Shown one piece after another: positions 9,158-27,846 of a DNA stretch of 39,472 nucleotides. The DNA is taken from positions 1 through 39,472 of IMG/VR virus record IMGVR_UViG_3300023176_001489; one strand, 5' to 3'. The translations under genes and the position numbers were made by a program. The notes under the pieces are model-generated. The model was not told where the DNA came from and did not search any database. It saw nothing but the letters and a program-made list of their open reading frames with translations. Positions within the stretch are counted from its first letter, which is position 1. Every line of letters begins with the position of its first letter. The DNA comes from a virus.

Positions 9158-9405
9158 TGCCAATCTATTTGACGCTTTTTCTTTAACCAACGCTTGCGTC
9201 CTGCATCTTTAGCTTTACGTTTAATTTCACTTGGTTTCACATATTCTCTACGTGTTCTAACTTCTTGGATAATTCCATCTTCTGTGCATTTTTTTTTAAA
9301 TTTTCTTAATGCACGTTCAAAGTTTCCATTCTTAACTTCTACGGTTGTACCAGACTTGGTATATCTGTCTGTGTCGTTTCCTTTTATATAATGTCTTTTA
9401 CTCAT
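9154..9405 (-). CDS. rpsU: Ribosomal protein S21
   Basis: An 83-residue bS21 homologue. S21 sits on the small subunit near the anti-Shine-Dalgarno sequence of 16S rRNA and is needed for initiation on natural mRNAs. Family features are visible: VEVKNGNFERALRKFKKKC (the N-terminal helix), REYVKPSEIKRKAKDAGRKR and the basic tail. Phage S21 genes are known in marine phages and are thought to bias host ribosomes to phage mRNA. The start overlaps the 3' end of infC by 8 nt, and the stop overlaps the next start (ATGA). It is a few residues longer than the Escherichia coli protein (71). Confidence 0.93.
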   Translation of the reverse strand: MSKRHYIKGNDTDRYTKSGTTVEVKNGNFERALRKFKKKCTEDGIIQEVRTRREYVKPSEIKRKAKDAGRKRWLKKKRQIDWQ

Positions 9406-9919
9406 TTTTGTTTATCAAACCTGTAATTCTATTACCGTTTTGTTTAAGCGGTTGTTCATATTTATAGTTTTCTAAATCATTCTCTATCGCTGATTTAAAA
9501 TATTCTAATACGTCAGATGCTTTAGACATTTCTCTGCCACGCATTTGAATTGTAATTTTTACCTTAGCACCTTTATCTAAAAATTGTTGCGCTCTACGCA
9601 TTTTTATTTGTAAGTCATGCTCTCCTATACCAGGTCTAAACTTGACTTCCTTAATCTCAATAGCGTTTGCTCTTGCATTTTTTGCTTGTAACTTTTCACG
9701 CTTTTTAAGTTCGTAGTTATATTTATTTAAACTTATAATTTTAGCTACAGGAGGTTCTGCATCAGGAACTATTAATACTAAATCTAATTCTTGTGATTCA
9801 GCTTTATCTAATGCTTGAAATTTAGACATTACTCCTAATTGTTCGCCGTCACTATCTATGACTCGCAACTTATTTGAATCTATATCGTTATTAGATATAA
9901 TGTTAGATTTGTTTTTCAT
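9398..9919 (-). CDS. infC: Translation initiation factor IF-3
   Basis: A 173-residue full-length IF3, compared with about 180 in bacteria. IF3 binds the 30S subunit, keeps it apart from 50S and proofreads start codons. The N-terminal domain (about 10-80) shows LRVIDSDGEQLGVMSKFQAL, LVLIVPDAEPPVAKI and NKYNYELKKREKLQAKNA; the C-terminal domain (about 85-173) shows EVKFRPGIGEHDLQIKMRRAQQFL, KVKITIQMRGREMS and PLKQNGNRITGLI. Both domains and the linker are intact. It lies directly between clpX and rpsU with adjoining ends. IF3 and S21 both act at the 30S platform, so together they could reprogram initiation. Confidence 0.95.
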   Translation of the reverse strand: MKNKSNIISNNDIDSNKLRVIDSDGEQLGVMSKFQALDKAESQELDLVLIVPDAEPPVAKIISLNKYNYELKKREKLQAKNARANAIEIKEVKFRPGIGEHDLQIKMRRAQQFLDKGAKVKITIQMRGREMSKASDVLEYFKSAIENDLENYKYEQPLKQNGNRITGLINKNE

Positions 9920-11170
9920 TTATGTTTTTTGACTTACCTTTGTTTTATCGTCAAACACTAAGATTGGATCAGTACCGTCTTTGATAAAATCACCATTAAT
10001 AATTACAGATTTAAGTCCTCGTTTCGCTAAACTAGGTAATCTGAATTGTAATTTAAGAAGAGACTTTTCAATAGAACTCCTTAAACCACGGGCACCGGTT
10101 TTATCTTCTGACGCCTGCTTTGCTATTTCTTGTAAAGCAGAATCTTTAAATTCTAATTCAACTCCGTCCAATGAAAATAGTTTTTTAAACTGAGCGACAA
10201 TACTATTCTTTGGCTCTGTTAAAACTTGTACTAATTGCTCTTCATTCAACGGATCTAATCCTACTAATATTGGAAATCTACCAGTAAACTCTGGGATAAC
10301 ACCATATTTAATAACATCTTGTGCTTGAACTGTTTCACGTATATTTATCTTTGAATTAGATTTGTCTAAAACAGTTGCATTAAATCCAATACTAGAATTG
10401 GTATTAACACGGCGTTCGATTATCTTTTCAATACCAACAAACGCACCGCCAACAATAAACAGTATTTTACTTGTATCTACTTCCACCATATCTTGTCCGG
10501 GATGTTTACGTCCTCCGCCTGGTGGGACACGAACAGTTGTACCTTCTACAATTTTCAGTAGTGCTTGTTGTACACCCTCGCCACTTACATCTTTTGTGAT
10601 AGATACGTTTTCACCTTTCTTGGCTTTTTTATCGATTTCATCAATATATATAATACCGTGTTCTGCTTTTGCTACATCAAAGTCTGCTGCCATTAACAAA
10701 CGCTGAACTACGTTCTCAACATCGTCACCTACATAACCGCTCTCTGTTAGTGATGTCGCATCAATCTGTGCGAATGGTACTTCTAAAAACTTTGAAATTG
10801 TTTTTGCTAATAATGTTTTACCAGTTCCACTTGGCCCAAGAACCATGACATTTGATTTATCTAGTTCTATACCATCTTTGGTATCTGAATTAATTCTTTT
10901 GTAATGATTATAAACTGCTACACTTAGAACTTCTTTGGCTTCATCTTGACCAATAATATGTTCGTCTAGGAATTCTTTAATCTCTTCTGGACTTGGAAGT
11001 TCTTCTAGCTTTTCGGTTTTGTCTTTGGTGACACGTGTTTCATGTATAATCTCATAACATAAATCTACACACTCATTACAAATGTATTGATTTGGTCCTG
11101 CGATTAAAGTTTTAACTTCTTCTTTTTGCTTGCCACAAAAAGAACATGTATATTCTGTTTTATCAGTCAC
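9920..11170 (-). CDS. clpX: ClpX, ATP-dependent unfoldase of the ClpXP protease
   Basis: A 416-residue complete ClpX. It has an N-terminal C4 zinc domain (Cys9, Cys12, Cys31, Cys34), Walker A GPSGTGKT (112-119), Walker B IIYIDEID (173-180), pore loop GYVG (145-148), the RKH loop (221-223) and the IGF loop (261-263) that docks on ClpP. All functional loops survive, so it should work with host ClpP, including on tmRNA-tagged proteins ending in Ala-Ala. No clpP is visible here. The start is GTG (11168-11170), 14 nt past the upstream stop. A GATAAATA late box lies 61 nt upstream, inside the end of the preceding gene. It is followed at once by infC. Confidence 0.96.
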
Positions 11171-13807: not shown

Positions 13808-14737
13808 TTAAATCCACTTAGTGATTTTTCTACCGCCCGCTGGATAGATTGAGAAACGTGCGCCTTTAACACCAAAGTTGTCACGGTCGCCTTTATACAT
13901 AGCCATTAGAACTGGCTCAAATTCATCTTCTAAACGCTCACCATTTGTATGTGCTGAGCCTGTAGCAACTAGTTTGTTGCCTTTGAACTGTGGTTCACCT
14001 TGAAGAATTAAGTCAACGTTCTGTTGTCCACGTTCACCACCGAATCCATTGCCGTAGATAGAAATACCACGTAGTTTGCCGTTCTGAATCTTACGTGCAT
14101 ATGTTGTTGCTCTTGGAATTTCACCGTTGGTAATAGCAATAACATCTTTAGCAAACTGTAAAATTTCTTCTTTTGCTTCTGGCATGTTCTGATACACTGC
14201 TTTCATTTCACGGTCACTCATGCCGCCCCATTGACCAAAGTCTTTAGCACGTGAGCCTTTCTTGTGTGAGATCCAAGCAACTTCGTTACCACTTGCGTCA
14301 ACAGCATGAAAGTCTGATTTAGGAGTACCCGGTGTAGAAACAAACTTAGCAACAGGAACAGTCTTATCGCCAATTACAAGATTGACTTCTGCTTTGCCCT
14401 GTTTCATTTGTTCTAGCATTTCGTTGATTTGTGTTAGTGCTGCGTCTTCATCACGTGTTGAGAAGCCACCTTTACCGCCAAACTCACTAGTCTTTTCTAG
14501 ACCAGTTAGTCTCACAGTTCTACCATCTTCTAATGGGAAACTATCAGGAATGTTACCTTTTTTCAGGTCTGCGATTAGTTCAGGATCACGCTTAATCTTA
14601 ACAGTAGGCATTTCTTCGCCTCTCAATACGAAAGGTGAACCAGTTTCAATCTTCTTAATCAAAGCCTGTAGCCTTGCTGGATTTTTAAGTAAGTTTGGTC
14701 TCTGTAATGGACCTTCATTTAATTCTGAATAACGCAT
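13808..14737 (-). CDS. Conserved-looking phage protein of unknown function
   Basis: A 309-residue soluble protein that I cannot place with certainty. Segments such as RLTGLEKTSEFGGKGGFSTRDED (about 79-101), DASGNEVAWISHKKGSRAKDFGQWGGMS and ARFSIYPAGGRKITKWI recall large-phage proteins sometimes labelled as endonuclease-like; this is a weak impression. I start at ATG 14735-14737 (MRYSELNEG). A 37-residue extension exists but runs through a late promoter and a terminator. The ATG lies exactly 5 nt after a GATAAATA box and has no Shine-Dalgarno, so the late mRNA may be leaderless. The N-terminal MRYSELNEG resembles the starts of other proteins here (see findings). Confidence 0.75.
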   Translation of the reverse strand: MRYSELNEGPLQRPNLLKNPARLQALIKKIETGSPFVLRGEEMPTVKIKRDPELIADLKKGNIPDSFPLEDGRTVRLTGLEKTSEFGGKGGFSTRDEDAALTQINEMLEQMKQGKAEVNLVIGDKTVPVAKFVSTPGTPKSDFHAVDASGNEVAWISHKKGSRAKDFGQWGGMSDREMKAVYQNMPEAKEEILQFAKDVIAITNGEIPRATTYARKIQNGKLRGISIYGNGFGGERGQQNVDLILQGEPQFKGNKLVATGSAHTNGERLEDEFEPVLMAMYKGDRDNFGVKGARFSIYPAGGRKITKWI

Positions 14738-14750: not shown

Positions 14751-14786
14751 AAAAAAGAAACCCCCACTGGAAAGGTACAGTGAGGG
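14751..14786 (-). terminator. Intrinsic terminator of the 15-kb noncoding transcript
   Basis: On the minus strand, CCCTCACTG (14778-14786) and CAGTGGGGG (14761-14769) pair at 8 of 9 positions around an 8-nt loop and are followed by TTTCTTTTTT. It closes a transcript with no protein gene in it. Confidence 0.85.
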
Positions 14787-15076
14787 CCTCTTGTTATAAA
14801 ATGTGCTTTATTATATATGTTGATAAAATGAAAAGCAGAGTTTATCAACTAGTATCTTTTATATATAGTGATAGGTGGGACTAAGGATTACCCACAATCG
14901 CCTTGACATATCCTGTCTACATATCCAGCGAAACCTAGCATCAAAGAGTTACCCTCGAACCCGCATCTTCCTGTCTCCAGGCTCATGCTGTGCCACTACA
15001 GCTACTAGTCAAGTTAATGCCTATGTGAAGCATCGTTTCCTTGCACTATCTAACTAAAGACCGTCGTCTTTGTTAT
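14755..15076 (-). ncRNA. Candidate structured noncoding RNA of unknown class
   Basis: This 320-nt stretch between a sigma70-like promoter (15083-15111) and an intrinsic terminator has no credible reading frame on the minus strand. It holds several short helices: GCTGT/ACAGC (14986-15002), CCTG-GAGA-CAGG (14971-14982), a long-range CTTGAC/GTCAAG pairing (15009-15014 with 14902-14907), GTGGG/CCCAC (about 14875-14896) and a 9-bp hairpin at 14819-14849. A GGGTTCGAG segment looks like a tRNA T-loop, but no cloverleaf can be completed. It is not a recognised tRNA, tmRNA, RNase P RNA or SRP RNA. The 5' end is inferred from the promoter. Confidence 0.55.
14819..14849. repeat. 9-bp inverted repeat GTTGATAAA / TTTATCAAC
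   Basis: Perfect arms at 14819-14827 and 14841-14849 with a 13-nt loop, inside the noncoding transcript upstream of its terminator. It may be a hairpin of that RNA. Confidence 0.6.
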
Positions 15077-15082
15077 GTTCTT

Positions 15083-15111
15083 AATATAGCAAATCAAAAC
15101 TGATTCGTCAA
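15083..15111 (-). promoter_or_regulatory. Sigma70-type promoter of the noncoding transcript
   Basis: TTGACG (15106-15111), 17-nt spacer, TATATT (15083-15088) on the minus strand, just past the fdxA stop. Confidence 0.7.
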
Positions 15112-15114
15112 GCC

Positions 15115-15453
15115 TTAATCGTAATTATCTAATAAATTTTCTTTACTTTCATCATAACCTTTTGCTGGATTTAAATCATCAGCATTTGGTAGTGGATCTT
15201 TTTTCTCTACGATAACTTCCCATTCTTGTGACCATTTTTTATTGATATCAAAAAGTCTTTGTGTAAAGTCAGGGTGTGTATCTGGAATAATTGCTTCTGC
15301 TGGACATTCAGGTTCACATACGCCACAATCAATACATTCATCTGGATTGATTACTAACATATCTTCTCCTTCATAAAAGCAGTCTACTGGACATACTTCT
15401 ACACAATCTGTATATTTACATTTAATACAATCTTGTGTCACAACATAAGTCAT
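15115..15453 (-). CDS. fdxA: FdxA-type ferredoxin (3Fe-4S / 4Fe-4S)
   Basis: A 112-residue bacterial ferredoxin very like the FdxA (7Fe) group of alphaproteobacteria. Cluster ligands lie in [17 protein letters not shown] (Cys9, 12, 17, 21, 25) and [12 protein letters not shown] (Cys40, 43, 46, 50). The C-terminal 55 residues ([19 protein letters not shown]) are the usual FdxA extension, so the length is normal. It is a soluble one-electron carrier. The 5' end overlaps the upstream 75-residue gene by 4 nt. Phages do carry ferredoxins, mostly plant-type 2Fe; a 7Fe FdxA is less expected. Possible partners are a phage or host reductase or ribonucleotide reduction, none of which is in the window. 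Confidence 0.93.
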
Positions 15454-18425: not shown

Positions 18426-18486
18426 TTTCTTTGTTCCATAGTAGTAAATATTTAGTGTGATTTTGTATAAAATCAATGGTAGTGTA

Positions 18487-18765
18487 CTGCGTTATAATGT
18501 AGCAGGCCCGTTCTGTTGCTAGGTGGAACCCATACCCCGCATACCTAAATCAGGCTGCGATTGCCATTGCTGGCGCTGCGTTTGTGTTTGCAGTTATAAA
18601 GTTTAACCTATTACGCTGTTACCCGGTTAACTCCACTTCACTTTCACACCTGTCGATCCTATTTCTGCCCCATAAAAAACACACTTGTCTAAATGTGCTT
18701 ATGGTGGAGCAGTGCGGTACCGCCCCGCAGTCCAGTATGTGTCCACGTTGCTTCAACGCTAACAG
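18487..18765 (-). ncRNA. ssrA: Circularly permuted (two-piece) tmRNA
   Basis: The minus strand encodes a permuted tmRNA, which rescues stalled ribosomes and tags nascent proteins. The acceptor piece comes first: CACATACTG, GAC, a T-arm TGCGG/CCGCA (18713-18729), then CTGCTCC and encoded ACCA (18702-18712). A 30-nt spacer with a 7-bp hairpin follows (18672-18701). The coding piece starts GGGGCAG (18665-18671), which pairs fully with CTGCTCC and has G-U as third pair, the alanine identity mark. CAGGTGTG pairs with CACATACTG (P2). The tag is GCA AAC ACA AAC GCA GCG CCA GCA ATG GCA ATC GCA GCC TGA, or ANTNAAPAMAIAA (18550-18591). TAGGT/ACCTA with GTTC/GAAC forms a following pseudoknot. Outer ends are approximate. 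The T-loop (GGCGGTA) is not the usual TTCRANN. Permutation is typical of alphaproteobacteria. Confidence 0.92.
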
Positions 18766-18767
18766 TT

Positions 18768-18798
18768 TATTTATAACATAATAATTAGTTGTTGTCAA
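18768..18798 (-). promoter_or_regulatory. Composite promoter of the tmRNA gene
   Basis: Minus strand: TTGACA (18793-18798), 17-nt spacer, TATAAATA (18768-18775). It combines a consensus -35 with a perfect T4-type late box, so tmRNA could be made throughout infection. Confidence 0.78.
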
Positions 18799-19219
18799 GT
18801 ACTGAATCTTTGTACATGATACACGGTTCAATTTCTTTTTTATAATAAACTATTATTGTACCGTTCTCATGTTTTACCATGTTTGCTATACCACGCTCAC
18901 GGGCTTTACCAAAACATTTATTTAAACTTTGTCCTGGAAATCTATATCTTGGATTTTCTTTTAAAAACTCTCTCAAATCATCAATCTTTTTTTGATTAAT
19001 TTCTATTCTATAACGAGATACGCAAGCAGAAAATGCGTTCCAATCATTAACATATTTGTTTTCAGGTTCACCGATTTCAACTCTGCAATCTTGGTAAACA
19101 CTTTGAGGAATGGCGTTACTTACGCCATTCACATTTAGTATAATTTGTGGTTCTTTAACTCTATCACCGAAGATAGAGAAACCTATTAGTAATATTATAA
19201 GTAGAATAGCACGTTTCAT
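18785..19219 (-). CDS. Exported Cys-containing protein of unknown function
   Basis: A 144-residue protein from ATG 19217-19219. The N-terminus MKRAILLIILLIGFSIFG is a signal peptide or anchor. The outer region has four Cys (QDCRVEIG, SACVSRYR, NKCFGKARERG, EPCIMYK), perhaps two disulfides, in a small alpha/beta domain of unknown family. The ATG lies exactly 5 nt after an AATAAATA late box and lacks a Shine-Dalgarno, so late mRNA may start at the AUG. A 15-residue upstream extension would overlap the preceding gene and the promoter. Confidence 0.72.
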   Translation of the reverse strand: MKRAILLIILLIGFSIFGDRVKEPQIILNVNGVSNAIPQSVYQDCRVEIGEPENKYVNDWNAFSACVSRYRIEINQKKIDDLREFLKENPRYRFPGQSLNKCFGKARERGIANMVKHENGTIIVYYKKEIEPCIMYKDSVLDNN

Positions 19220-23105: not shown

Positions 23106-24614
23106 TTAACCTTGATAGCCTTCTTTGCGTTTACATTCGTATACGTCTATATTAGTATCTAAGTAACTACTGTATAGCTTAACGTCATATCCCCATAATT
23201 TTTGAACATGTATTAATACTTGTTCAGCATTCTTTTTGTCTAACCTCTTACCATTAAACGAGTAATGGGTCAAAGTAAGTTCACGGCTTTCTGTGATATC
23301 CGCTTCTGTTACTTGAATATCAGGAATCATTGCCGCTGTCACGTATTGTTGCGATAGTGCCTTACGCACACGCTTATATCCACGTTCATTATGAATACTG
23401 GTTACTTGATAATTGTCATTCTTTTCTTCATCATGTAGAACAAATAGTTTCCAATCACGAATAACTTTAGGTCCTAAAAACTGTAGAATAGCAGACTCGT
23501 CACGGTAGTTCGCAACGATATCTTTAATCACATCACGCCAGTTTTGACCTACTATATCTGGAAACCACTCTTCGTCTTCTTTATCTGGTTCTTCACATAT
23601 ACGCTGTACATCTTTAAGGATAGCAAAGCCCAGTGCGTATGGATTGAACCCTGAATAGTGTTGTGAATTGAAATTCGGTTGATATAACACAGCACTATGA
23701 AGTTGAAAAAACTCTAACATTGCACCATCATCTACTTTACCCTGATTATATAATTCATTAAAAATATAGTGATGTGTAAATGAAGCAAAACCTTCGTTCA
23801 TAACTTTTGTTTGATATTGTGGATAGAAATACTGCGCAATACGTCTTACGATACGACATATTTCACGTTGCCATGGTTGTAATACTGGAGAATGCTTTTC
23901 TAAGAAGTATAACAAGTTTTCTTCTGGTTCTGAAGGCCATATGTATTTTTTATCTTCTCCATCTGTCTTTGTTTTCGGTAATGTTTTCCAAAGTTCATTA
24001 ACTTGTGATTGCAAATATTCACTTCTGGCACGTTGTTTTTCTGCTTCACGTTTAGCATTCAACTTTGGCGGACGTTTATATTTGTTGATGCTCTGATACT
24101 GAATAGCATGACACGCATCAAGGGTCTCTTCTACAATCTCAACGCCGTATCTTTCTTCACAGCTTCTTATGTAATTTTTAGCGAATAGCAAATAATCTAC
24201 AATAGCGTCAGGAGATGTCCATTGCTTAAACAAATAATTATTTTTAAAGAAGTGATTATGACCAAACGCAGCATGTGCTATAACTAATGCTTGTGTAGTC
24301 ATAGAATTTTCTTCCATAAGATAGTTAATGCATGGATTACTATTAATAACAAGTTCATAAGCAAGTCCCATACGTCCAGCTGTATATTGATGCATGTTAC
24401 TAATAAAACTTTTACCAAAGCTCCAATGGTTATACATTAGTGGCATACCAACAGAACTGTATGCGTCTAACATTTGTTCTACTGTGATGATTTCAATTTG
24501 ATTAGGGAAACAATCAAGCCCCATGTCATTGACTGCGATTTCTTCACACGCATCCATTACAGAATACAGTTTGTCAAAATCCCAATGGGAGCCTGTATAG
24601 AGTAATTTACTCAT
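23106..24614 (-). CDS. spoVR: SpoVR/YcgB family protein
   Basis: A 502-residue SpoVR family protein of usual length (about 500). Characteristic stretches are PLMYNHWSFGKSF, the YELVINSNPCINYLMEEN segment, ALVIAHAAFGHNHFFKNNYLFK, and FASFTHHYIFNELYNQGKVDDG with HYSGFNPYALGFAILKDVQRI. The family is named for a Bacillus spore cortex protein; its biochemical role is unresolved. In many proteobacteria it forms a conserved cluster with yeaG (prkA) and yeaH, as here, linked to stationary-phase and nitrogen-starvation stress. Its start overlaps the yeaH stop by 4 nt. Confidence 0.93.
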   Translation of the reverse strand: MSKLLYTGSHWDFDKLYSVMDACEEIAVNDMGLDCFPNQIEIITVEQMLDAYSSVGMPLMYNHWSFGKSFISNMHQYTAGRMGLAYELVINSNPCINYLMEENSMTTQALVIAHAAFGHNHFFKNNYLFKQWTSPDAIVDYLLFAKNYIRSCEERYGVEIVEETLDACHAIQYQSINKYKRPPKLNAKREAEKQRARSEYLQSQVNELWKTLPKTKTDGEDKKYIWPSEPEENLLYFLEKHSPVLQPWQREICRIVRRIAQYFYPQYQTKVMNEGFASFTHHYIFNELYNQGKVDDGAMLEFFQLHSAVLYQPNFNSQHYSGFNPYALGFAILKDVQRICEEPDKEDEEWFPDIVGQNWRDVIKDIVANYRDESAILQFLGPKVIRDWKLFVLHDEEKNDNYQVTSIHNERGYKRVRKALSQQYVTAAMIPDIQVTEADITESRELTLTHYSFNGKRLDKKNAEQVLIHVQKLWGYDVKLYSSYLDTNIDVYECKRKEGYQG

Positions 24615-25900
24615 TGTTCTTCCCTCTTTTTAAATATTTCCCTGAACACTGGATATACATCATTACGATTTACTAATTGTTTAGCTATTAAATTATTATT
24701 ATCTTTTTCTAATTCTTCATATTCTGAAATAAGATTACCTACTGCGGTATAGTATCCACCCATCCCAACACCTCGAGGTTCACCAACTTGGATATATGAA
24801 AAGAATTGTGTGACTGGTAATATATGTTTTCTAAGAATATCTTTAAGAACTGTATTATCGCTAGACCAATTATCGCCGTCACTTGCTTGTGCGAAGTATA
24901 TATTCCATTCGCTAGGAGAATATCTTTCATTAATTATTTCTTTTGCTAATTCAAACGCACTACTAACAATAGTACCACCATTATCTTTACCAGAGAAAAA
25001 TTCTTCTTCGTCTACTTCGTTTGCTTTTGTATGGTGTCTAATGAATACACACTTTACTGTTTTGTACTTACGGGATACAAACAAATTAAGAAGCATAAAG
25101 AAACGCTTTGCTAAGTCTTTATGAAACTCTGTCATACTAGCAGAGACATCCATTACAAAGAATATAACAGCCTGTGAACTAGGTTTAGGTATTTTAGTAA
25201 AGTTATTGTATCTTAAATCTACAGGATCAATAAAAGAAATTGCTCTTGCTCTAATTCTTAATACACGTATTTCTTCTTCTAGTTCAAGCCTACGTTTTTC
25301 ATTTTTACAGTTTTCTAATTCTTCTTCAAGTTCACGTATCTTTTTCAGTTTAGGCTTTTGTAATGCAATACGTCTACCTATACTATTTACCATTGATTTT
25401 TCTAGATTGAGTTGAGCAGGGTTACCTTCATTTGTATACCCAGAACGTGCTATTTCCCATTTCTTTACTACACGATTTTCTTTTGGTATCATGTGTGGCA
25501 GTTCTAAATCTTCAAACAAAATGTTTACAAATTCATCATTGCTTAACGCAAAAGAAAAATCATCTTCTCCTTCACCATCAGGAGAACCTTCGTGTCCGAC
25601 TCCACCACCACCGCCTTTTGGTTTTTCAAGTAGATCACCTTCAGTATATTCTTCATTTCCTGGAAGTACAATATCACGTGAACCACTCTGAGGATCATGT
25701 CCAAACTGTGGTTCATTTATACCTTTACGTTGTATCGTAACGCCATGTTCATCGCCTGATCCTGATATTTTTCTTTTACCAAGACTATCGTATACACTTT
25801 TGCGTATTTGTTCTTTGTTTCTTTTCAGAAACTTTTGACGATTGTTTGAACTTTTACCGCCTGGATTTTTGCGTCTATCAATAATAGTATTGTTAGGCAT
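24611..25900 (-). CDS. yeaH: YeaH-type DUF444 protein with VWA domain
   Basis: A 429-residue DUF444 (UPF0229) protein, close to the bacterial length. The N-terminus is basic (IDRRKNPGGKSSNNRQKF), followed by a disordered Gly-rich linker (KPKGGGGGVGHEG). The C-terminal von Willebrand-like domain begins VIFFVMDVSASMTEFHKDLAKRFF with the metal-binding D-x-S-x-S. It is thought to partner the PrkA kinase and SpoVR. It lies 11 nt after prkA and overlaps spoVR by 4 nt, matching the bacterial gene order prkA-yeaH-spoVR. Confidence 0.92.
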   Translation of the reverse strand: MPNNTIIDRRKNPGGKSSNNRQKFLKRNKEQIRKSVYDSLGKRKISGSGDEHGVTIQRKGINEPQFGHDPQSGSRDIVLPGNEEYTEGDLLEKPKGGGGGVGHEGSPDGEGEDDFSFALSNDEFVNILFEDLELPHMIPKENRVVKKWEIARSGYTNEGNPAQLNLEKSMVNSIGRRIALQKPKLKKIRELEEELENCKNEKRRLELEEEIRVLRIRARAISFIDPVDLRYNNFTKIPKPSSQAVIFFVMDVSASMTEFHKDLAKRFFMLLNLFVSRKYKTVKCVFIRHHTKANEVDEEEFFSGKDNGGTIVSSAFELAKEIINERYSPSEWNIYFAQASDGDNWSSDNTVLKDILRKHILPVTQFFSYIQVGEPRGVGMGGYYTAVGNLISEYEELEKDNNNLIAKQLVNRNDVYPVFREIFKKREEQ

Positions 25901-25911
25901 GTTATCGTCCT

Positions 25912-27846
25912 CTAGTTAGACTTCTGGACACGCATATACCATTCTACTAATCGTTTCACTTGACGTTCTGTGTAACCCTTTTCAGTCATACGTGATACGA
26001 AATCATCATGCTTCTGCTGGTCGTCTTTTGACTTCTTACTACCGAATGAGATTACTGGTAGTAGTTCTTCTGTGCCAGCGAACATCTTATGTTCGATAAC
26101 TTCTTTCATTTTTTCGTATGCCGTCCAAGGAGGGTTGTTGCCTTCGTGCTTCGCTCTTGCTCTTAGAACCCAATTGACTACTTCGTTACGGAAGTCTTTA
26201 GGATTTGCGATACTTGCTGGCTTTTCAATCTTTTCTAGTTCTTCATTTAGAATATCTCTATCAAATAAATTTCCAGTGTCTGGGTCTTTGAAGTCAATTT
26301 TCTGTATCCAATGATCCGCATATTCTATATATCTATCAAATAAATTTTGTCCGTATTCTGAATAGCTTTCTAGGTATGCTTTTTGAATTTCATTACCTAC
26401 TTGTTCTGCATACTTTACTGCTAGATGATCCTTAATAAATCCAAGTAGCTTTTGTTCATGTTCTTCTGGGAACTGTTCACGTTTGATAGCTGTTTCTAGC
26501 ACATACATCAAATGCACTGGATCAGCAGCAACTTCATTTGGATCAAAGTTAAATGTTTGTGACAAAATCTTAAATGCGAAACGTGTTGACATACCTGACA
26601 TGCCTTCATCTACGCCGGCACTGTCTTTATATTCTTGCATTGACTTTGCTTTTGGATCTACATCATGTAGATTTTCACCATCGTAGATACGCATCTTTGC
26701 TGCTAGTGTTGAATTTTCATGCTCTTTCAAACGTGACAGAATTGAAAACTGTGCTAACATATCAAGTGTATGTGCTGCACATTTACTATCATCGAGACCT
26801 GATGATTTAAGCATCTTGTCATAGATTGCTGTTTCTTCTGATACACGTAGACAGTAAGGGACTTTAACGATGTAAACACGATCCAAGAACGCTTCGTTGT
26901 TCTTGTTGTTTCTGAATGCTTCCCATTCGCTTTCGTTGGAGTGTGCAACTACTACGCCGTTAAATGGGATTGCTGAGATGCCCTCAGTGCCCATATAGTT
27001 ACCTTCTTGTGTCGCTGTTAGCAGTGGGTGTAGAACTTTGATAGGAGCTTTAAACATCTCCACGAATTCCATCATACCCTGGTTACCACGACATAGACCG
27101 CCACTAAACGCATATGAGTCTGGGTCATTCTGTGAGAAGTATTCTAGTTTACGAATATCTGTCTTACCAACTAGTGACGAAATATCTTGGTTGTTATCAT
27201 CGCCAGGTTCTGTCTTCATAATACCGATTTGTTTTAGTTTTGAAGGATACATTTTTACAACAGAAAACTTACTAAGGTCTCCTTCAAATTCTTCTAATCT
27301 TTTAACTGCCCATGGAGAAAGTAGACCAGACAAGTAACGAGAAGGTACACCATATTTTTCTTCAAAGTCACTTCCGAAATCTTGTGGATTAAATAATCCA
27401 AGTGGTGTTTCAAACACTGGAGATATTTCATCACCTGCTTTTAGAACATAAATAGGATGCTTTTCCATAAGTTCTTTTAGTCGCTCTGCTAGTGATGATT
27501 TACCTCCACCTACTGGTCCTAATAGATAAAGAACTTGTTTCTTTTCCTCTAGTCCCTGTGATGAATGTCTGAAGTATGCTACTAATCTTTCAATTGCTTC
27601 TTCCATACCATAGAAATCCTTGAAAGCAGGATATACTTTAATTGTTCTGTTTAGAAAAATTCTACTAAGTCTAGGATCTGAACTTGTATCTACAACTTCC
27701 GGCTCACCGATTGCATCTAGCATTCTTTCTGCAGCGGTTGCGTATGCTAATTTATCTTCTTTACAAAGATCAAGATAGTCTGTCAGTGACATTTCATCTT
27801 CTTTTTTACTAGCATAAATTTTGTTAAACTTTTTTAAAACACTCAT
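25912..27846 (-). CDS. prkA: PrkA/YeaG serine protein kinase (AAA+ type)
   Basis: A 644-residue PrkA, essentially full length (about 640). The AAA+ N-terminal part holds Walker A GPVGGGKS (110-117), AERLKELMEKHPIYVLKAG and the conserved LSGLLSPWAVKRLEEFEGD. VVAHSNESEWEAFRNNKNNEAFLDRVYIVKVPY is the sensor region. The C-terminal kinase-like domain (about 430-640) ends GYTERQVKRLVEWYMRVQKSN. In Escherichia coli, YeaG acts in nitrogen-starvation survival; in Bacillus it affects sporulation. All three cluster members are intact here, so it appears to be a working system. The weak upstream region (27850-27887) shows TATATAAA but no clear -35. Confidence 0.94.
   Translation of the reverse strand: MSVLKKFNKIYASKKEDEMSLTDYLDLCKEDKLAYATAAERMLDAIGEPEVVDTSSDPRLSRIFLNRTIKVYPAFKDFYGMEEAIERLVAYFRHSSQGLEEKKQVLYLLGPVGGGKSSLAERLKELMEKHPIYVLKAGDEISPVFETPLGLFNPQDFGSDFEEKYGVPSRYLSGLLSPWAVKRLEEFEGDLSKFSVVKMYPSKLKQIGIMKTEPGDDNNQDISSLVGKTDIRKLEYFSQNDPDSYAFSGGLCRGNQGMMEFVEMFKAPIKVLHPLLTATQEGNYMGTEGISAIPFNGVVVAHSNESEWEAFRNNKNNEAFLDRVYIVKVPYCLRVSEETAIYDKMLKSSGLDDSKCAAHTLDMLAQFSILSRLKEHENSTLAAKMRIYDGENLHDVDPKAKSMQEYKDSAGVDEGMSGMSTRFAFKILSQTFNFDPNEVAADPVHLMYVLETAIKREQFPEEHEQKLLGFIKDHLAVKYAEQVGNEIQKAYLESYSEYGQNLFDRYIEYADHWIQKIDFKDPDTGNLFDRDILNEELEKIEKPASIANPKDFRNEVVNWVLRARAKHEGNNPPWTAYEKMKEVIEHKMFAGTEELLPVISFGSKKSKDDQQKHDDFVSRMTEKGYTERQVKRLVEWYMRVQKSN

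Follow-up and report, generated by a model that had tools for sequence, protein, structure and literature searches.

Since 2010 the manA RNA has counted among the orphan riboswitch candidates, and papers on cyanophages repeat the idea that it regulates metabolism in cis. Weinberg et al. (2010) are said to have taken the RNA as cis-acting, and Rfam lists it under its cis-regulatory type. A literature search found no description of manA as a free-standing element. Earlier reports place it in 5′ UTR positions (PMC2864571); this placement was an inference in the original paper and lies outside the covariance model. Other structured RNAs of the same marine phages, namely wcaG, glutamine (glnA) and freshwater-2, belong to other Rfam families and are filed as leaders of adjacent genes. 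A further comparison is offered by RNAs C and D of phage T4 (species 1 and 2 of its tRNA cluster), small stable phage RNAs found partly in tRNA arrays, for which the annotation "small stable RNA" gives no role.

The window, by which we mean the whole 39,472-base virus record analysed, is a stretch of a marine T4-like phage, with genes for a tail tape-measure-like protein, a virion structural protein and an endolysin. It also carries a permuted tmRNA of alphaproteobacterial type with the tag ANTNAAPAMAIAA (18459–18802, minus strand), and, as judged by eye, a ClpX-like gene adjoining an IF3-like gene (9398–11170, minus strand). Three adjoining genes at 23106–27846 (minus strand) resemble the bacterial SpoVR, YeaH and PrkA set; the last of them matches phrog_22605.

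Positions 15071–14865 match the Rfam manA RNA (RF01745) across model positions 1–192 at 46.7 bits (E = 5.9e-11). The curated gathering cut-off of this family is 55.2 bits, so a search at Rfam's curated thresholds reports nothing at the element and the match emerges only with an E-value threshold, which is why routine annotation misses it. The initial annotation had called the element undescribed and had proposed a covariance search against Rfam; that search returned a full-length match to a known family, and the description was therefore wrong. The window's score is typical of its own subfamily, since most window-type relatives likewise fall below the cut-off, at 37–53 bits, although L006/L007, which have their downstream gene in common with the window (72% protein identity), reach 55.5 bits and exceed it. 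Of the 77 IMG/VR contigs retrieved with only the 3′ motif, 72 match RF01745 at E ≤ 0.01, most with 37–65 bits over the full model, and only 17 score above the cut-off.

Homology is reciprocal, because a model built from 34 window-type sequences (R1) finds cyanophage members of the family. It recovers nine isolate copies, eight of them from cyanophages and of another sequence type (30–54 bits, E 2e-9 to 6e-18), as well as a copy flanked by tRNA genes (L092); neither this copy nor the eight cyanophage copies are in the model. The two types have the same helices and the conserved 3′ hairpin TTG..GGTA...A.TCC..CCT, and differ in that the window type reads AGTGCAAGGAA...AACTTG where cyanophage members have AGTGACTGAATAA. 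Comparison of the element with phage isolates by blastn gave short matches only, and a pattern scan of genome contigs returned weak partial matches, mostly in Bacteroidales contigs. Homology to the T4 rnaC/rnaD RNAs was rejected, as an unfiltered scan of the T4 tRNA cluster with the manA model gave no match above noise at 1409–1672. On its full-length sequence and structure match, then, the window RNA belongs to a known but unexplained family of marine T4-like phages, the manA RNAs.

The RNA gene lies on the minus strand, which the first reading had left unnamed, at about 15076–14751 between a ferredoxin-like gene (Fer4 domains; 15115–15453, minus strand) and a gene for a 309-residue protein of unknown function, phrog_13937 (13808–14737, minus strand). 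The promoter and strong terminator singled out in the initial annotation are both present on this strand. The sigma-70-type promoter TTGACG-17-TATATT (15111–15083) matches at 10 of 12 positions, has an extended TG, begins four bases after the ferredoxin-like gene and predicts an RNA start at about 15076. The manA core (15071–14865) opens with the P1 hairpin AAAGAC-GACG-GUCUUU (15071–15056), seen in both the RF01745 alignment and the fold prediction. Between core and terminator, a linker hairpin GTTGATAAA...TTTATCAAC (14849–14819) is predicted by folding and is not kept in the alignment with relative L002. The intrinsic terminator (14792–14751) combines a 15-pair stem of −22.7 kcal/mol with a T run and sets the predicted 3′ end at about 14751, giving a transcript of about 326–327 nt. 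Directly 3′ of it, just 5′ of the next gene, stands a T4-type late-promoter-like box, GATAAATA (14750–14743), which is kept in L002 and would yield a nearly leaderless mRNA, a point against the autonomous reading favoured below. A 5′ UTR position, as implied by Rfam's Cis-reg type, thus does not describe the window, where a terminator and a late-promoter-like box precede the next gene.

A protein gene in the core can be set aside: of 204 frames in 34 relatives a single one runs open through the core, and none is conserved, which agrees with the earlier observation that a credible protein gene is lacking. Of 100 dinucleotide shuffles of the predicted 327-nt transcript, only 2 fold as well as the transcript itself (z = −2.74). 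In an alignment of the 34 relatives (A3), 49 pairs in 11 helices are paired in 85.5% of cells, and a shift of the partners by one to three columns lowers pairing to 37–47%. The covariation score is 0.527, against 0.186 in shuffled alignments and 0.10–0.15 for slid structures; both partners are changed in 327 cells (122 in shuffles), and 37 of the 49 pairs show such double changes. In the 3′ hairpin one pair appears as U-A, G-C, G-U, A-U and U-G, and the next as G-C, A-U and U-A. Comparative folding, which had been suggested as a check, thus supports the manA fold.

The individual helices proposed from the single sequence fared less well. Both strings of the long-range CTTGAC/GTCAAG pair are present, but they pair in only 12–24 of the 34 relatives per column. 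CTTG pairs instead with a CAAG 30 nt upstream, where L103 carries a compensatory CATG/CATG; the invariance of CAAG/CTTG and of part of the 3′ hairpin is partly imposed, because the loci were fetched by those motifs. In the supposed T-loop-like GGGTTCGAG, TCGAGG forms the 5′ side of a hairpin with the loop GUAACU, and the T-loop candidate GGTTCGAG is likewise part of a covarying hairpin. ARAGORN and the Rfam tRNA model found no tRNA at the element; with the T-loop string in a covarying hairpin as well, the suggestion of a tRNA mimic lacks support.

The sub-threshold Rfam score would also be expected if the window copy were what is left of a leader RNA, inert or in decay and functionless in this phage, and two relatives with long contigs, L003 and L005, have no manA copy. 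We consider such decay highly improbable in view of the strong covariation and invariant loops, and of the alignment with L002, in which promoter and core are nearly unchanged despite a diverged linker.

Since its description manA has been read as a riboswitch or attenuator whose folded domain would sense a metabolite and set read-through of the terminator into the next gene. Its complex and highly conserved junction sequences, and the earlier reports of 5′ UTR positions, are in keeping with this. The signals around manA point elsewhere. We surveyed 203 elements in 40 clusters, each found by a 5′ motif paired with a 3′ motif; none of the patterns used to fetch the loci included promoters, terminators or neighbours. 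Of 33 testable window-type clusters, 26 carry an upstream sigma-70-type promoter at a constant distance (0.7% of random sites) and 12 have an intrinsic terminator 3′ of manA (2.8% at random); both flank 33% of relatives against 0.3% of random sites. The association of these signals with manA is far beyond chance, and the dozens of relatives thus bear out the proposal of a noncoding RNA gene that has a promoter and a terminator of its own. In S-SSM5, P-RSM4, P-RSM6 and P-TIM68, we read the manA −35 box as lying inside a terminator-like hairpin that follows the upstream gene.

What follows the terminator also speaks against control of the next gene in cis. After 11 of the 13 listed terminators a T4-type late box (NATAAATA) occurs within 4–42 nt, before the next gene. 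A separate leader RNA, freshwater-2 (RF02980), precedes the next gene in L280, L303, L312 and L360, giving the order promoter, manA, terminator, late box, freshwater-2 leader RNA, structural gene; whereas freshwater-2 leads that gene, manA is separated from it by the terminator. Glutamine and freshwater-2 RNAs sit near manA in these four loci, with the glutamine riboswitch upstream of manA in L312 and L360. In L045, L282 and L064 a conserved block, AAGGAGAC...AAGAATTATAG...GGGACCACGGTTAGTCCC, lies downstream of manA and is followed by a late box and a small gene (MQAQYFNNLVDQIHTQTK...); the block has no Rfam match in these clades and is possibly an undescribed leader RNA. Attenuation is possible in the window, because 80 nt separate the terminator from the core and the terminator arm pairs more favourably with its own manA (−16.3 kcal/mol) than with others (−12.6 kcal/mol). 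Over 13 units, however, terminators are not significantly more complementary to their own manA than swapped ones (p = 0.34), and antiterminator pairing specific to the own unit is not seen.

A regulator in a leader is expected to stay with its gene. The nine isolate genomes each have one RF01745 match, at different loci: after gp23 in P-HM1, S-SSM5 and P-RSM4, before gp32 in P-HM2, between regA and purL in P-SSM2, between ferredoxin and carbamoyltransferase in P-SSM7, near talC in P-RSM6 and P-TIM68, and before rubrerythrin and an ssDNA-binding gene in Mosig. The taxonomy lines of P-HM1 and P-HM2, whose copies lie at different loci, assign them to the same species. With model R1, P-HM2 has a second, weak match (12.2 bits). 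Across loci at least ten unrelated genes lie downstream of manA. Some copies lie between tRNA genes (tRNA-Pro and tRNA-Thr in L092, tRNA-Met and tRNA-Gly in L295) or between a tRNA and tmRNA (L150/L151); these serve as single examples only, because enrichment of tRNA neighbours is not significant (a tRNA gene lies within 60 nt in 3 of 40 clusters and at 2.6% of random sites; p = 0.08). A single copy whose neighbour changes, the many unrelated downstream genes and the copies among tRNA genes all count against a metabolite-sensing switch, which we regard as unlikely.

Leader-like positions occur at gp32. In six clusters, P-HM2 and HTVC008M, manA lies 30–100 nt before the gp32 gene and no terminator was found between them. 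Proximity to gp32 recurs in both sequence types (L016, L028, L054, L023 and L344 of the window type, L159 of the CTGAA type, P-HM2, Mosig and HTVC008M). The HTVC008M copy (L418, 5034–5223), directly 5′ of the single-stranded DNA-binding protein gene of this Pelagibacter phage, is probably a divergent manA RNA by its R1 score (17.6 bits, E = 8e-5); it is missed by Rfam and overlaps a small annotated ORF. In P-HM2 (NC_015284, 4849–5023) two annotated hypothetical genes, PHM2_011 and PHM2_012, overlap manA and are probably spurious. Because of the gp32-adjacent clades we keep open a cis role, a leader function there being possible, or a putative role in binding gp32. In the latter case manA would have originated as a gp32-leader operator, akin to the leader pseudoknot of T4 gene 32, and would elsewhere have become a free-standing, trans-acting operator or decoy. 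This seems to us rather improbable, and less probable than a riboswitch: gp32 and manA may simply have a replication-gene neighbourhood in common, and many genomes carry manA elsewhere.

We favour a trans-acting RNA, because manA stays with the genome while changing genes and has its own delimiting signals. For the window, we put at roughly two in three the probability that the element is transcribed on its own, as an RNA of the manA family about 326 nt long, and that this RNA folds and acts in trans; it may be a phage regulatory RNA. Host RNA polymerase would initiate from the sigma-70-type promoter just behind the ferredoxin gene, and the RNA would fold as manA, with P1 as a hairpin at the 5′ end, helix P2 closing a multi-branched domain, and the conserved hairpin UUG..GGUA...A.UCC..CCU. 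Transcription would end at the intrinsic terminator, and a T4-type late promoter belonging to the next gene would turn that gene on afterwards. The folded, stable RNA would act in trans, with a host or phage protein, or an RNA-protein machine, as its most likely binding partner. The sequence itself establishes membership in the family, the fold, the promoter and terminator, neighbours that change, and a single strong copy per isolate genome; from these we infer that the RNA is made, stable and trans-acting, with transcription read from the signals only.

Here and in many related phages, manA looks like a free-standing RNA gene, with start and stop signals of its own, and not like the gene-leader switch of the databases. 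With slightly less confidence than for the window, we extend the reading to the family: rather than a riboswitch family, manA would be a small RNA gene of T4-like marine phages, present once per genome, moved together with its own early promoter and trans-acting on a host or phage machine. If manA is autonomous, a ligand search guided by its downstream genes would be misdirected. These phages have Prochlorococcus, Synechococcus and Pelagibacter as hosts, and manA is present in several that are in culture, which makes the proposal testable now.
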